Below are positions 5,406-17,791 of a stretch of 64,000 bases of DNA, piece by piece. The notes below the pieces were generated by a model. The model ran no database searches. It was given only the letters and a program-made list of their open reading frames with translations, and was not told where the DNA came from. The translations under genes were made by a program, and so were the position numbers. This DNA comes from Rhodoferax sp. (GTDB lineage Bacteria; Pseudomonadota; Gammaproteobacteria; Burkholderiales; Burkholderiaceae_C). The DNA lies in contig NZ_JAMPXE010000001.1 of assembly GCF_023701345.1 (NCBI RefSeq), positions 18,871 through 82,870 on the forward strand, in the 5' to 3' direction. Numbering within the stretch: the first letter of the stretch is position 1; every line of letters starts with the position of its first letter.

Positions 5406-5831
5406 TCAGGCTTGCCACGGATTGATGACATTCAAGCCAAAGCCTTCAAAGTCACGCACATTGCGGGTGACCAGCGTCAGATTGTGATGCAAGGCCGTGG
5501 CCGCCAGCAAACTGTCGATGGCCGGCAGCGGGCGACGGGCTTGGGCTTGCAAATAGCCCCATCGGTCAACCACTGGCAAATCGACGCTCAGTATCCGACC
5601 AAGAAAAAAGGTGGGCAGGTCGACCTCAAGCCAGTCATTCAAAGCCTGTCGCCTTCTGGCATCGACGCTGCCAGTGCTTAGCGTTTCTATGCCTTTGCGA
5701 ATTTCACCCAAAGTGAGCACACTCAGAAAAAGCGATTGCGCAGTACGTGCTGAAAACCAGGTCACCACCTTGGCGTCCGGCTGCTTGCGACGTAGTTCAG
5801 AAATGGCGTTGGTGTCGAGCAGATAGCTCAT
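5406..5831 (-). CDS. vapC: PIN-domain toxin, VapC/FitB type
   Basis: 141-residue PIN-domain ribonuclease. The N-terminal LLDTNAISELRR supplies the first acidic residues, and AIDSLLAATALHHNLTLVTRNVRDFEGFG the remaining acidic active-site cluster. Its start overlaps the antitoxin stop by four bases (ATGA), so it is translationally coupled to it. Expected activity is Mg-dependent cleavage of tRNA or mRNA when the antitoxin is degraded. Length and motifs are intact, so it is probably functional. The closest family style (ISELRRKQP...W) is FitB-like. Confidence 0.92.
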   Translation of the reverse strand: MSYLLDTNAISELRRKQPDAKVVTWFSARTAQSLFLSVLTLGEIRKGIETLSTGSVDARRRQALNDWLEVDLPTFFLGRILSVDLPVVDRWGYLQAQARRPLPAIDSLLAATALHHNLTLVTRNVRDFEGFGLNVINPWQA

Positions 5832-6079
5832 AGGTTGATCTCACGCGTCAGACTTTGGACGCGCTCGAAAGTCAGGTCATCCAGGCCATACAAGGGTGAA
5901 CGCTGCATGAATTCGACCAAGGACTGCGAGTTGCCGCTGAGCCGATCAAACAATTCGCGTGAGACCACCACCGCCACCGATTTTCCATGCACCGTGATGT
6001 CTTGCGGACCGTCTTGCTTTGCGCTTTTAAGCACATCAGAAAAGCGCGCTTTTGCCGTTTGCAGTTGCCAACTTTGCAT
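5828..6079 (-). CDS. Phd/YefM-family antitoxin
   Basis: 83 residues from the ATG at 6079: MQSWQLQTAKARFSDVLK is the classic Phd/YefM DNA-binding N-terminus, followed by ITVHGKSVAVVVS. The track's longer 100-aa start is rejected because a GGAGG lies 6 nt before 6079 and the extension would read through the operator. The C-terminal part (SPLYGLDDLTFERVQSLTREINL) is the likely toxin-binding tail. Autoregulation through the palindrome just upstream is expected. Confidence 0.92.
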   Translation of the reverse strand: MQSWQLQTAKARFSDVLKSAKQDGPQDITVHGKSVAVVVSRELFDRLSGNSQSLVEFMQRSPLYGLDDLTFERVQSLTREINL

Positions 6080-6090
6080 GCCGTCCTCCA

Positions 6091-6117
6091 ATATTCTGAC
6101 CATAATGGTCAGAATAT
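6091..6117. promoter_or_regulatory. Operator of the toxin-antitoxin operon (perfect 13-1-13 palindrome)
   Basis: Two arms, ATATTCTGACCAT and its exact reverse complement, are separated by a single base. The palindrome sits 12 nt before the antitoxin ATG, directly upstream of its GGAGG. Phd/YefM-type antitoxins bind such operators to repress their own operon. The AT-rich arms stand out from the surrounding GC-rich DNA. Confidence 0.8.
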
Positions 6118-6133
6118 AACCGATTGGCAAAAA

Positions 6134-9284: not shown

Positions 9285-9365
9285 CGGCAGGTCATGGCTT
9301 GGGGCGGCAGCCTCATACTGTCACACGCCCAGCAATCGGCTACCACCCCAAGCCATGACCTGCTG
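9285..9365 (+). repeat. Conserved-loop hairpin repeat, copy 1
   Basis: A 17-bp perfect stem (CAGGTCATGGCTTGGGG at 9288-9304 with its complement at 9346-9362), extendable by a few pairs, encloses a loop containing CCTCATACTGTCA and CCCAGCAATCGG. The same loop core recurs at 9587-9667 (inverted) and 16676-16758 with different arm sequences. The loop is flanked by a CC/GG pair in all copies. Confidence 0.75.
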
Positions 9366-9440
9366 AGACACAGAGAAGTGATTTGCTGGCAAGTGAATAC
9401 CCAAAGGTTTCCGACTTCTGCTGATTTAATGCGAAAGAAC

Positions 9441-9521
9441 GCCGTCATTGAGCGCAGCGAGGCAATCCATGACTTCCGGATGCATGGACTGCCACGTCGC
9501 TATGCTCCTCGCAATGACGGC
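9441..9521. repeat. GTCATTGCGAG-type REP hairpin, full copy
   Basis: Imperfect inverted repeat: GCCGTCATTG...GGCAATCCATG on the left pairs with CATGGACTGCC...CAATGACGGC on the right. This type of 'CAATGACG' element is widespread between bacterial genes. Related copies lie at 59287-59358 and, as a half element, at 42091-42121. Confidence 0.7.
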
Positions 9522-9586
9522 GCGTTTCTTTTTCTCGCAGTGGCTTGGCTGCCATGCCAGTAAGTGCTGGTGCATCACCACCCTCA

Positions 9587-9667
9587 CCGGCCATGTCGGG
9601 CCATGCCGGGGACCGATTTCTGGGCGTGTGACAGTATGAGGTCCCCGGCATGGCCCGACGTGGCTGG
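9587..9667 (-). repeat. Conserved-loop hairpin repeat, copy 2 (inverted)
   Basis: Arms of 24 bp with one wobble (CCATGTCGGGCCATGCCGGG at the start of the left arm, complement at 9640-9663), extendable to about 28. Read on the minus strand, the loop is CCTCATACTGTCACACG followed by CCCAGAAATCGG, nearly identical to copy 1 although the arms are unrelated in sequence. It lies 23 bp from the stop of the HlyD-type adaptor gene. Confidence 0.75.
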
Positions 9668-9689: not shown

Positions 9690-10910
9690 TCAAGGTTGGC
9701 GCACCCGCACCGCTTGGCCATCGGCAATCATGCTGCCCGGGTAAAGCAGCACGGTGTCGCCCTCGCGCAGGCCCTCATTGAGCCAGGCCACGTCAGAATT
9801 TCGGTCCTTGATCTGCACCGCCCTGGCGCGGGCGCGCCCGGCTTCCACCACAAAGACCCGCCATTGCTCGCCGTCACGCACCAGCGCCGCGGTGGGCACC
9901 AGCAAGGCCTTGGCCTGCTTGAACAACGTGATGCGGGCATCGATGCGAAAACCATCGCCGAGGCGCTGCGCCTCGGGGGCAGCGGCCTCCAGGCTCACAA
10001 TGACATTGACGCGCTGCTCCTCGATGCCCAGGGCCGACACCTTGGTGAAGGCCACGGGTTCGATGCGTGTGACCTGGCCGGGAATGGGCGCTGCGCCGCT
10101 GCCCAGCGAGAGTTGCACCGGCGCGCCCGGCTGGATTTGACGCACCTCGCCGGACAGCACGTCGATGACCGCCTCCATGGCGGCGGTGTTGCCGATGTCG
10201 AGCAGCGGCTGGCCGGCGGTGACCGGGGCGGCGCTGTCCAGGTGCAGCTTGAGCACCTGCCCGTCGACCGGGCTTTTGAGTTCCCAACGGCCCGTGGTGC
10301 TGCCGCCGGCTGCGGGCTCGGCGCGACTCAGGGCGGCGCGCGCTTCGGCCACAGCAAAGTCGGCCATGCCCTGCTCGGCGCGCGCGGCCGTGAGCGCCTG
10401 CTGCGCGGCCTGGCGGGCCAGTACCGCCTGGTCGCGCGCCGACGCGGAAATGAAGTTGTCCTGCGCCAGCTTGGCCGCCCGCTCGGCTTCCAGCATGGCC
10501 TGCGCCAGTGCGGTCTGCGCCTGCTGCACCTGCGCTGCGGCGGCACGGCGCGCAGCGTCGGCGCTGCCCACGCGCTGCTGCAATACGGTACGCGTGCGCG
10601 CATCGATCATTTGCGGCGCGACCGGCACCAGGGCCGCCACCACGTCACCGGCGCGCACGCGGTCGCCCACTTTCAATGTCGGGCGCATCAGTTCGGCGTG
10701 CGTGGGGGCTGTGATCACATAGCGGTTTTTCAGGCGCAAGCGGCCGTCCTCTTCAATGCTCTGCTCAAAGCTGCCGGTGGTCACGGTAGCCACTTCGACC
10801 AGCAGCGGACGCGGCCGGTAAACGGCATAGACCAGCGCGGCCGCCGCCATCAGCAGCAGCGCCCCGCCAATCCAGCGTTGGTATTTTTTCCAGGGAGTTT
10901 GATTGTTCAT
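9690..10910 (-). CDS. HlyD/RND-type periplasmic adaptor of an ABC exporter
   Basis: 406 residues. A single N-terminal anchor helix (about 13-31) is followed by a lipoyl/barrel-sandwich half (EDGRLRLKNRYVITAP), an Ala/Gln-rich alpha-helical hairpin (about 110-200), the second lipoyl half (LKSPVDGQVLKLHLD) and beta-barrel and membrane-proximal domains. It bridges an inner-membrane ABC permease to an outer-membrane channel. The start overlaps the permease stop by ATGA, so the three genes at 9690-14024 form one operon read on the minus strand. No outer-membrane partner is encoded here; the TolC-like protein at 49.6 kb might serve. Confidence 0.88.
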   Translation of the reverse strand: MNNQTPWKKYQRWIGGALLLMAAAALVYAVYRPRPLLVEVATVTTGSFEQSIEEDGRLRLKNRYVITAPTHAELMRPTLKVGDRVRAGDVVAALVPVAPQMIDARTRTVLQQRVGSADAARRAAAAQVQQAQTALAQAMLEAERAAKLAQDNFISASARDQAVLARQAAQQALTAARAEQGMADFAVAEARAALSRAEPAAGGSTTGRWELKSPVDGQVLKLHLDSAAPVTAGQPLLDIGNTAAMEAVIDVLSGEVRQIQPGAPVQLSLGSGAAPIPGQVTRIEPVAFTKVSALGIEEQRVNVIVSLEAAAPEAQRLGDGFRIDARITLFKQAKALLVPTAALVRDGEQWRVFVVEAGRARARAVQIKDRNSDVAWLNEGLREGDTVLLYPGSMIADGQAVRVRQP

Positions 10911-15553: not shown

Positions 15554-16594
15554 TCACTCGAAGGTCTCAAACACCTCCACCAATCGGTCCTGAAACGCCT
15601 GCTTGGCTGATGCGTCGATGAAACTGGCGGCAAAACTGTTGTGCGCCAACTGGTAGGCGTGTTGCGCCGTCAACCCCAGCGCGGCAAAAGTCTGCGTGTA
15701 ATTCTCATTGATGTAGCCGCCAAAATAGGCTGGATCGTCCGAGTTGACGGTGGCCACCAGCCCGGCTTGCAGCATGCGGCCCAGGTTGTGTTGGGCCAGC
15801 GTCGGGAACACCTTTAATTTCAGATTGGACAGCGGGCACACCGTGAGCGGAATGCGCTCAAACGCCAGCCGCGTCACCAACGCCGGGTCGCGCAGGGCCT
15901 GCACGCCGTGGTCGATGCGCTCCACCTTGAGCACGTCCAGGGCGCTCCAGATGTAGGCCGGCGGGCCTTCTTCGCCCGCGTGCGCCACCAGCCGGAAGTC
16001 CAGGGCACGCGCCCTGGCAAATACTTTGGCGAATTTTTCCGGGGGATGGCCCAACTCGCTGGATGCCAGACCGATGCCGACCAGTTTGTCGCGGTAAGGC
16101 AGCGCCTGCTCCAGTGCCTCGAAGGCCTCATGCTCGGACAAATGGCGCAAGAAACACAGGATCAACGAAGCACTGATCCCCAGTTGTTCCTGGGCATCGG
16201 CACAAGCCCGGTGCAGGCCGTTGATCACGACATCGGCACTCAGGCCGTGGCTGGTGTGGGTTTGCGTGTCGAAAAAAATCTCGGTGTGCAGCACATGGTC
16301 TGCCGCCGCGCGCACCAGGTAGGCCCAGCACATGTCATAAAAGTCCTGCTCGGTGCGCAACACCAGCGTGCCCGCGTGGTAGACATCCAGAAACTCCTGC
16401 AGGTTGTTGAACACATAGGCCCGGCGCAGCGCTGCCACGTCCGGATAGGGCACGGTCAAGCCATTGCGCGCCGCCAGCGCAAACATCAGTTCGGGCTCGA
16501 GTGAGCCTTCGATGTGCATGTGCAGCTCGGCCTTGGGCATGCGCCGGAGCAGCTCGGGCAAGCGCTCCGAAACAACGGGTTTGATTTGTCTCAT
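15554..16594 (-). CDS. Adenine/adenosine deaminase family protein, probably adenine deaminase
   Basis: 346 residues of the ADA fold: [14 protein letters not shown] (first zinc ligands), [33 protein letters not shown] and [15 protein letters not shown]. As I recall them, the wording [25 protein letters not shown] and [11 protein letters not shown] resembles the proteobacterial adenine aminohydrolases more than true adenosine deaminases. The likely reaction is adenine to hypoxanthine, feeding xanthine dehydrogenase. Which substrate it prefers cannot be proved from sequence alone. It is probably the first gene of an operon with guaD. Confidence 0.85.
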
Positions 16595-16993
16595 GGTGAT
16601 TTCATCACTGGGTTTGACTGCGCTATTGGCCAGAACTTGTATTTCTGGTCTTTGATTTCAGGGTGACGATCGTGATGGCAGGGCTTGGGGTATGGGCCCC
16701 CGCCTCATACTGTCAAAGGCCCAGAAATCGGCGGAAACCCATACCCCAAGCTCTGCTACCGACAGCATCGATTCACACAGCAAGTTTAATTCGGGAGAAG
16801 GACGGGGCTGCAGCGTAAGGAGTCAGCGACGAGTACCCGCTTATAGGCAGCCCGGCTGAAGTTAAATTGGCAGCCTTTGGCATTGCGAATCCTTGCGCAT
16901 CTGTAAACACACGTGAATGACATTGAGATAACCACGCGGAGTTTCTGTGCGTAAAACACGCGACGTTGATACCGTGACGCTCACCAGCTTAAT
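16595..16993. other. Intergenic region with a conserved-loop hairpin
   Basis: About 400 bases upstream of the deaminase gene and downstream of the TauE-like gene. It holds hairpin copy 3 (16676-16758) and about 230 bp of unremarkable sequence without a supported ORF. The deaminase promoter should lie here. Confidence 0.6.
16676..16758 (+). repeat. Conserved-loop hairpin repeat, copy 3
   Basis: Arms of 19 bp with one wobble: GCAGGGCTTGGGGTATGGG at 16678-16696 and its complement at 16738-16756. The loop contains CCTCATACTGTCA and CCCAGAAATCGG, the same core as copies 1 and 2, but the arms are different. It marks the border between the purine deaminase genes and the sigma-54 haem-lipoprotein unit. 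Confidence 0.75.
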
Positions 16994-17791
16994 TCACAAC
17001 AACCCAAATCCCAATCCGATACCAATGGCAATCATCATGGCCGCGACCATCAATTCGACGGTGCGCAAGGTAACTTGTTTGAGTAATCGTTTGCCAAAAT
17101 AGGAACCCAGGAAGGCCGACACTATAGCCACCAGCATCAGTTCGCCCGATTGACTGCTTCGCACGCTCTCCAAAGCAGCTGGTAGCGTGAGGCCGTAGAC
17201 GGCAATGCGAACCACGTCCACGACAACAGTGCAAACTGCGCCGGTTCCAACATAGGATTCTTTGGAAAGCCCCAGCTTGATGAGAAATGCGGAGCGCAGG
17301 GCACCCTGGTTACCCGATAGTCCGCCAAAAAAACCAGACAACAAGCCGCCTGCCACAAGCCAGCGTGCGGGGAAGGCCAGCCGGGCAAAAGAGGGGGAGA
17401 GTTCAAGCAGCGCAAAAATCGTGATGACGCCACCTATCAACACTTTGACTGGCGTGATGTCGTGGGTCCGGCCCAGCCATTCATAACTTGCCCACGGCAA
17501 AAGTGCCGATATCCTGGCCAACAGACTCGCCCCAATGATGGCAGCTAACCCTGCTGGCAAGGCAAAACGAATAACGGTAGGCCAATGTGCATCACGCCCC
17601 ACCAACCCGATCTTGAAAAGGTTGTTGGCGAGGTGCACCACGGCCGTCATGGCGATGGCAACCGACACCGGGAAGAACAAGGCAAAAACAGGGGTCAGGA
17701 TGGTACCCAACCCGAAACCTGAAAAAAAGGTCAAGCAGGAAGCGACGAGCGCACTGACGCTGATGATCAGAATGTCCATACTGAAACCCAT
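16994..17791 (-). CDS. TauE/SafE family (DUF81) membrane permease
   Basis: 265 residues, almost entirely hydrophobic with about seven or eight helices. The N-terminal half has SGFGLGTILTPVFALFFPV and the repeat in the second half GGLLSGFFGGLSGNQGALRSAFLIKLG, the paired glycine-rich motifs of the TauE/SafE family. Members export sulfite, sulfoacetate or other small organic anions. It follows the haem lipoprotein gene by 71 nt on the same strand and may be expressed with it. An alternative start is the Met five residues in. Confidence 0.88.
   Translation of the reverse strand: MGFSMDILIISVSALVASCLTFFSGFGLGTILTPVFALFFPVSVAIAMTAVVHLANNLFKIGLVGRDAHWPTVIRFALPAGLAAIIGASLLARISALLPWASYEWLGRTHDITPVKVLIGGVITIFALLELSPSFARLAFPARWLVAGGLLSGFFGGLSGNQGALRSAFLIKLGLSKESYVGTGAVCTVVVDVVRIAVYGLTLPAALESVRSSQSGELMLVAIVSAFLGSYFGKRLLKQVTLRTVELMVAAMMIAIGIGLGFGLL

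Follow-up and report, generated by a model that had tools for sequence, protein, structure and literature searches.

A dispersed hairpin in Rhodoferax and relatives with a freely varying stem of fixed length and a conserved internal loop

Dispersed palindromes are usually defined by a conserved stem sequence together with end tags, and integron attC sites can function through a single folded strand whose arms are free in sequence. The element described here, first noticed as three hairpins in a 64,000-nucleotide stretch of Rhodoferax DNA (the whole of which is referred to as the window), resembles attC in being a folded single strand with free arms, but it lacks conserved simple sites at its ends, has its conserved part near the tip, and has a stem of fixed length. 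In behaviour, the nearest systems are the REP and RPE repeats. REPs, 20–40 bp long and tagged with GTAG, flank RAYT genes (PMC3733652). The present element shares with REP, BIME and REPIN sequences the dispersed palindromes near gene 3′ ends and the inverted dimers, but it is 76–80 nt long (67% GC), untagged, conserved internally and not found flanking RAYT genes. RPE and CGTC-tagged repeats are likewise palindromes that lie in frame in protein genes with no dedicated transposase known (PMC3733652), although the element described here has no CGTC tag, no conserved stem sequence and a different host clade.

The closest named repeat, by description, is the beta-proteobacterial repeat element (BRE), named in 2011 from Bordetella and Comamonadaceae and approximately 90 bp long (PMC3110155). 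In the accessible portion of its description, BRE measures 75–91 bp with a GC content of 69%, is mostly intergenic with some copies in genes, reaches up to 29 copies per genome, and occurs in Bordetella, Polaromonas, Rhodoferax (i.e., R. ferrireducens, with 4 copies reported) and Delftia; it was first seen around the 80-nt transcript BprJ1 of B. pertussis, and was reported as head-to-tail tandem arrays defined by sequence identity (PMC3110155). Bordetella accounts for 45 published BRE sequences, and a Bordetella copy occupies NC_002929 3605317–3605401. Compared by description only, and as far as that portion goes, the two agree in length, GC content (69% vs. 67% here), intergenic and partly genic location, and a clade that includes R. 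ferrireducens; they differ in arrangement, being tandem head-to-tail there, whereas here 66 sets of neighbouring copies face each other as inverted mates and only 2 are direct; one direct pair was seen in genome G523. A variable stem, an invariant internal loop and a strand preference were not found in the same portion (PMC3110155). BRE is thus a candidate for being the same family. The initial annotation knew of no named family with this pattern, a view that may fail if BRE, by description a serious candidate, is the same family. Rfam has no family above gathering threshold (only generic long-stem miRNA models below it), the GTAG and CGTC tags are absent, and literature searches for the core string and for Rhodoferax palindromes or structured RNAs gave no match.

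Architecture of the hairpin

The three hairpins in the window proved real. Their cores lie at 9311 and 16703, and on the minus strand at 9641, and the following features were delineated (bit scores from covariance model R1):

9286–9364, plus strand: copy H1; arm 9286–9312, loop 9313–9337, arm 9338–9364; 80.8 bits
9313–9337, plus strand: H1 core TCATACTGTCACACGCCCAGCAATC; internal loop TCATA/CAATC, inner CTG/CAG
9588–9666, minus strand: copy H2, the inverted partner of H1; 85.0 bits
9615–9639, minus strand: H2 core TCATACTGTCACACGCCCAGAAATC; core pattern match
16678–16756, plus strand: copy H3; arm 16678–16704, loop 16705–16729, arm 16730–16756; 89.4 bits
16705–16729, plus strand: H3 core TCATACTGTCAAAGGCCCAGAAATC; core pattern match

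All three share a layout of a 27 nt arm, a 25 nt loop and a 27 nt arm. The core pattern has three exact matches in the window vs. 0.01 expected by chance and is not a chance match, and the folds are 6–8 SD better than those of shuffled sequences (z = –6.1, –7.8 and –6.2). H1 is located between dcd and a HlyD/MacA-like gene, H2 lies 20–25 nt past the stop codon of the minus-strand gene at 9690–10910, and H3 lies between an adenosine deaminase-like gene (15554–16594) and a TauE-like gene (16994–17791). A different palindrome (GTCATTGAGCGCAGCGAGGC...GCTCCTCGCAATGACGGC) is present between H1 and H2 at 9440–9522; since it is missing from the otherwise similar locus of genome G336, it is probably a recent insertion, and it has a 75% match on a Methylosinus plasmid. 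Elsewhere in the window (5406–6130), two adjacent minus-strand ORFs, one for a PIN-like protein of 141 aa and the other of 100 aa, resemble a toxin-antitoxin pair.

Instead of the 17–24 bp arms described at first, the arms measure 27 bp throughout the family. Specifically, among 113 copies with <80% arm identity, the fraction of Watson-Crick pairs was mostly 0.76–0.96 over pairs 1–26 (0.58 at pair 8), and went from 0.70 at pair 27 to 0.38 at pair 28 and approximately 0.25 at pair 29 and beyond. Because this profile falls off after pair 27, the stem has a fixed length of 27 bp and a freely varying sequence. In a set of 78 copies, 87.6% of stem cells were paired, compared to 58.7% when shuffled and 35–44% when slid, and doubly changed cells numbered 662 vs. 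225 in shuffles. A second set covering all core types yielded 89.5% paired cells and 594 doubly changed cells (173 when shuffled), with controls over both sets at 57–59% (shuffles) and 35–45% (slid), and both-sided change was seen at 26 of the 27 stem pairs. These data strongly support the earlier proposal that selection acts on the folded form, and the other genomic copies do have complementary arms. The arms had also been called unrelated between copies, which did not hold, as they form loose classes and are related within a class.

The near-identical loop noted initially was borne out as a conserved core, but its truly invariant part is narrower, namely a 5×5 internal loop, above which sits a small apical hairpin that covaries. 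The nearly unchanging part comprises the closing C-G pair and the two sides of the internal loop, TCAT(A/G) and AAATC. The latter was present in all 251 copies found by pattern, partly by construction of the search, and a few copies depart from it (e.g., H1, with CAATC). Between the two sides of the internal loop, the apical hairpin occurs as CTG/CAG, GTG/CAC, CTGC/GCAG, CTGG/CCAG, CGGG/CCCG and longer forms, and its helix covaries (CTG/CAG to GTG/CAC, T.C to C-G, and CTGG/CCAG to CGGG/CCCG).

The folded strand

An A.C mismatch on one strand corresponds to G.T (G.U in RNA) on the complementary strand. On the strand reported initially, stem mismatches in the 113 copies comprised 219 A.C vs. 54 G.T, and 110 vs. 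27 when restricted to well-formed copies with pair 8 left out, while base composition alone predicts a ratio of approximately 1.4 to 1. Between orthologous copies the counts were 211 vs. 13, from pairs that are non-independent. Since this A.C excess amounts to G.T (G.U) on the complement, the complementary or bottom strand is the one that is kept folded. Moreover, the bottom strand was predicted to be the more stable in 107 of the 113 copies as RNA (median gap of 7.2 kcal/mol) and in 104 of the 113 as DNA, making the initially reported strand the less stable of the two. The A.C excess and the better bottom-strand fold together show that selection acts on a folded single strand, namely the complement of the reported one.

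On this strand the unit reads 5′-stem-C-GATTT-(apical hairpin)-YATGA-G-stem-3′, and its GATTT/YATGA internal loop is predicted to be able to form tandem G.A pairs. A protein-binding cruciform, as suggested in the initial annotation, is disfavoured by the strand-asymmetric wobble pairs, since a cruciform, like palindrome repair, is strand-symmetric and would not predict the mismatch asymmetry. The GC skew of genome G351 gave no usable replichores for testing replication-strand orientation.

Distribution, genomic position and dispersal

The family is larger than the three window copies. In the genome from which the window comes, the core matches exactly at 10 places, and the covariance model gives 17 matches. 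An exact core scan of 85,462 species genomes yielded 104 loci, assigned where named to Rhodoferax, Polaromonas and Curvibacter, the rest being MAGs named to a higher rank. With model R1, copies were found in 76 of 90 Rhodoferax genomes, at 0 to 43 per genome (maximum in G364; G308, G351 and G376 are copy-rich too, G378 has 5–6, and G332, G334, G311 and G337 have none), and MAGs of R. ferrireducens contain copies as well. Outside Rhodoferax the element is sparse, both within the same family (G028, G051, G211, G115, G088, G071 and G043) and outside the family but within Burkholderiales (G406 and G523). Because just a part of each genome's candidates was scored in the large scans, absences in them are weak, and copy counts are lower bounds since assemblies break at the hairpin. 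Contigs end inside or beside hairpins unusually often (e.g., contigs C183 and C208 of genome G000; loci L043, L123 and L129), so that drafts undercount. No match was found in viral contigs searched with core types A and D, or in plasmids searched for the element.

Inspection of the flanking genes (codon-usage calls made in this analysis) revealed that copies favour gene 3′ ends, some 50 nt past stop codons and with a constant orientation; some form inverted pairs. Within 100 nt on the 5′ side of single copies, a gene 3′ end was present in 93 cases and a gene start in 11, with no such bias on the 3′ side (15 and 18), and the median distance from stop codon to copy was 53 nt. Among 181 single copies, 16 lie inside predicted genes and the rest are intergenic. 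In the window, H2 follows this 3′-end rule with respect to gene 9690–10910 and forms an inverted pair with H1; H3 is an exception to the rule.

In 24 close orthologous pairs the loop was 98.3% identical, the arms 86–88% and the adjacent flanks 80–84%; changed stem pairs comprised 51 Watson-Crick to Watson-Crick changes, 35 A.C, 8 G.T and 14 others. One site is occupied in eight or nine species, whose copies differ considerably in their arms. Copies are thus kept and compensated in situ over long periods. An apparent wholesale replacement of arms between loci L149 and L153 turned out to be general intergenic divergence.

Copies are also dispersed and amplified in some lineages, and species differ in copy number. 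In G364, near-identical units (lineage-specific families) sit in unrelated flanks. Insertion in frame into protein genes, an RPE-like trait, was seen in cobQ of four species, within a protein loop of variable length; most relatives have a short loop there and no copy. MmeI-like methyltransferase genes of five species carry the element too, again in frame. At the dcd locus, both H1 and H2 are shared with G336 only among 28 resolved loci; in G300 a deletion has left a scar at which the two hairpins are fused, and elsewhere the intergenic region is short. At the 16676 locus, G374 diverges at the stem base. Neither these two loci nor cobQ, whose loop is too variable, yielded a clean, precisely bounded empty site, and no target duplication was found at copies. 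In G523, outside Comamonadaceae, two direct copies (L350 and L355) are 194 nt apart, with nearly identical flanks and arms that differ by largely compensating changes.

Candidate explanations and implications

Some cell component probably recognises the folded shape, on one DNA strand only. We consider it about an even chance that the element is a dispersed, non-coding REP/RPE-like palindrome under strand-specific structural selection that spread as a mobile hairpin. The unit of 76–80 nt (27 bp stem, 5×5 internal loop and small apical hairpin) acts as a folded single strand. Under this proposal, a protein would bind the internal loop, set at a constant distance from the base of the stem, in either single-stranded DNA or RNA; copies would spread in trans as non-autonomous hairpins, moved by some enzyme that is not the resident RAYT, and would be retained where the hairpin falls beyond a stop codon. 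Against mobility, no transposase was seen to accompany the copies, the only recurrent genes among the neighbours examined belonged to orthologous housekeeping clusters, and target duplication, GTAG or CGTC end tags and a precisely bounded empty site are all missing. An unpaired GTAG at the stem end occurred in 4% of copies on the top 5′ flank vs. 4% in shuffles, although GT[AG]G was mildly enriched there (42% vs. 22%), and a CGTC end tag in 2–13% by flank vs. 3–7% in shuffles. Mobilisation by the resident RAYT, a Y1 transposase, is quite improbable, even though inverted pairs, palindromic form and the intergenic site after genes would suit it and Y1 transposase genes are present in 80 of the 90 genomes. 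The element was beside none of the 32 Y1 loci fetched, so that the earlier suggestion of a REP/Y1-type transposase target is unsupported in cis; several RAYT genes are instead flanked by AATTAATTGGAATCTGACCCCAATTAATT-type hairpins, the GTAG tag is absent, and RAYT also occurs in copy-free genomes (e.g., G332 and G337). A single RAYT-like gene, some 230–250 codons long, is present in most Rhodoferax genomes (RAYT loci L145, L318, L323 and L324). The second Y1 transposase gene of the window's genome (L146, on G000:C74) sits between GTAGGTCAGAATTTATTCTGAC palindromes, an arrangement typical of GTAG REPs.

The mobile hairpin is favoured over a purely RNA function, which we regard as unlikely, i.e., a bottom-strand transcript that would fold and bind a protein or yield a stable RNA of approximately 80 nt, with the 3′-end position reflecting regulation or protection of RNA 3′ ends, not mobility. 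Features typical of RNA are the tolerance of G.U-type pairs on one strand, the tandem G.A pairs in the internal loop and the covarying apical helix; orthologous sites are retained for long, and BRE, if the same family, overlaps BprJ1 in B. pertussis in the accessible part of its description (PMC3110155). However, Rfam offers no family above threshold, in approximately 90% of single copies the strand with the better fold runs antisense to the gene upstream, no general conserved promoter was found beside copies, the copies in cobQ and MmeI genes would need to be antisense RNAs, and a U-tract is missing on both strands. Intrinsic termination of the upstream genes, for which the strong GC-rich stem and its spacing from stop codons would be suited, is the least probable reading, as neither strand has a T-run after the stem (on average 3.1 T per 12 nt on top and 1.35 on bottom), the antisense strand folds better, and a terminator does not need an invariant internal loop. 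Very unlikely, too, is a mutational artefact in which template switching (quasi-palindrome correction) perfects imperfect palindromes and thereby creates complementarity without selection; it would account for complementary arms of free sequence that change together, but does not predict the invariant internal loop, the sharp end of the stem at 27 bp, apical covariation, or A.C far exceeding G.T.

Returning to the mobile hairpin, a purely selfish element would need less than the long, compensated retention seen at one site, which therefore favours a host function. In this regard, we tentatively suggest, at somewhat less than even confidence, that the element is a previously undescribed strand-specific recognition motif in nucleic acid (a tandem G.A 5×5 loop 27 bp from the base) with a cognate protein, kept at gene 3′ ends throughout the genus because it benefits the host, and carried from site to site as a mobile hairpin.

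In contrast to the usual palindromes, the stem here is free in sequence and fixed in length, with the conserved part near the tip, and mismatch counts alone show which strand is folded. The hairpin thereby offers a concrete bait for seeking its cognate protein and, if BRE is the same family, may give a structure to a repeat that was named in 2011 without one.
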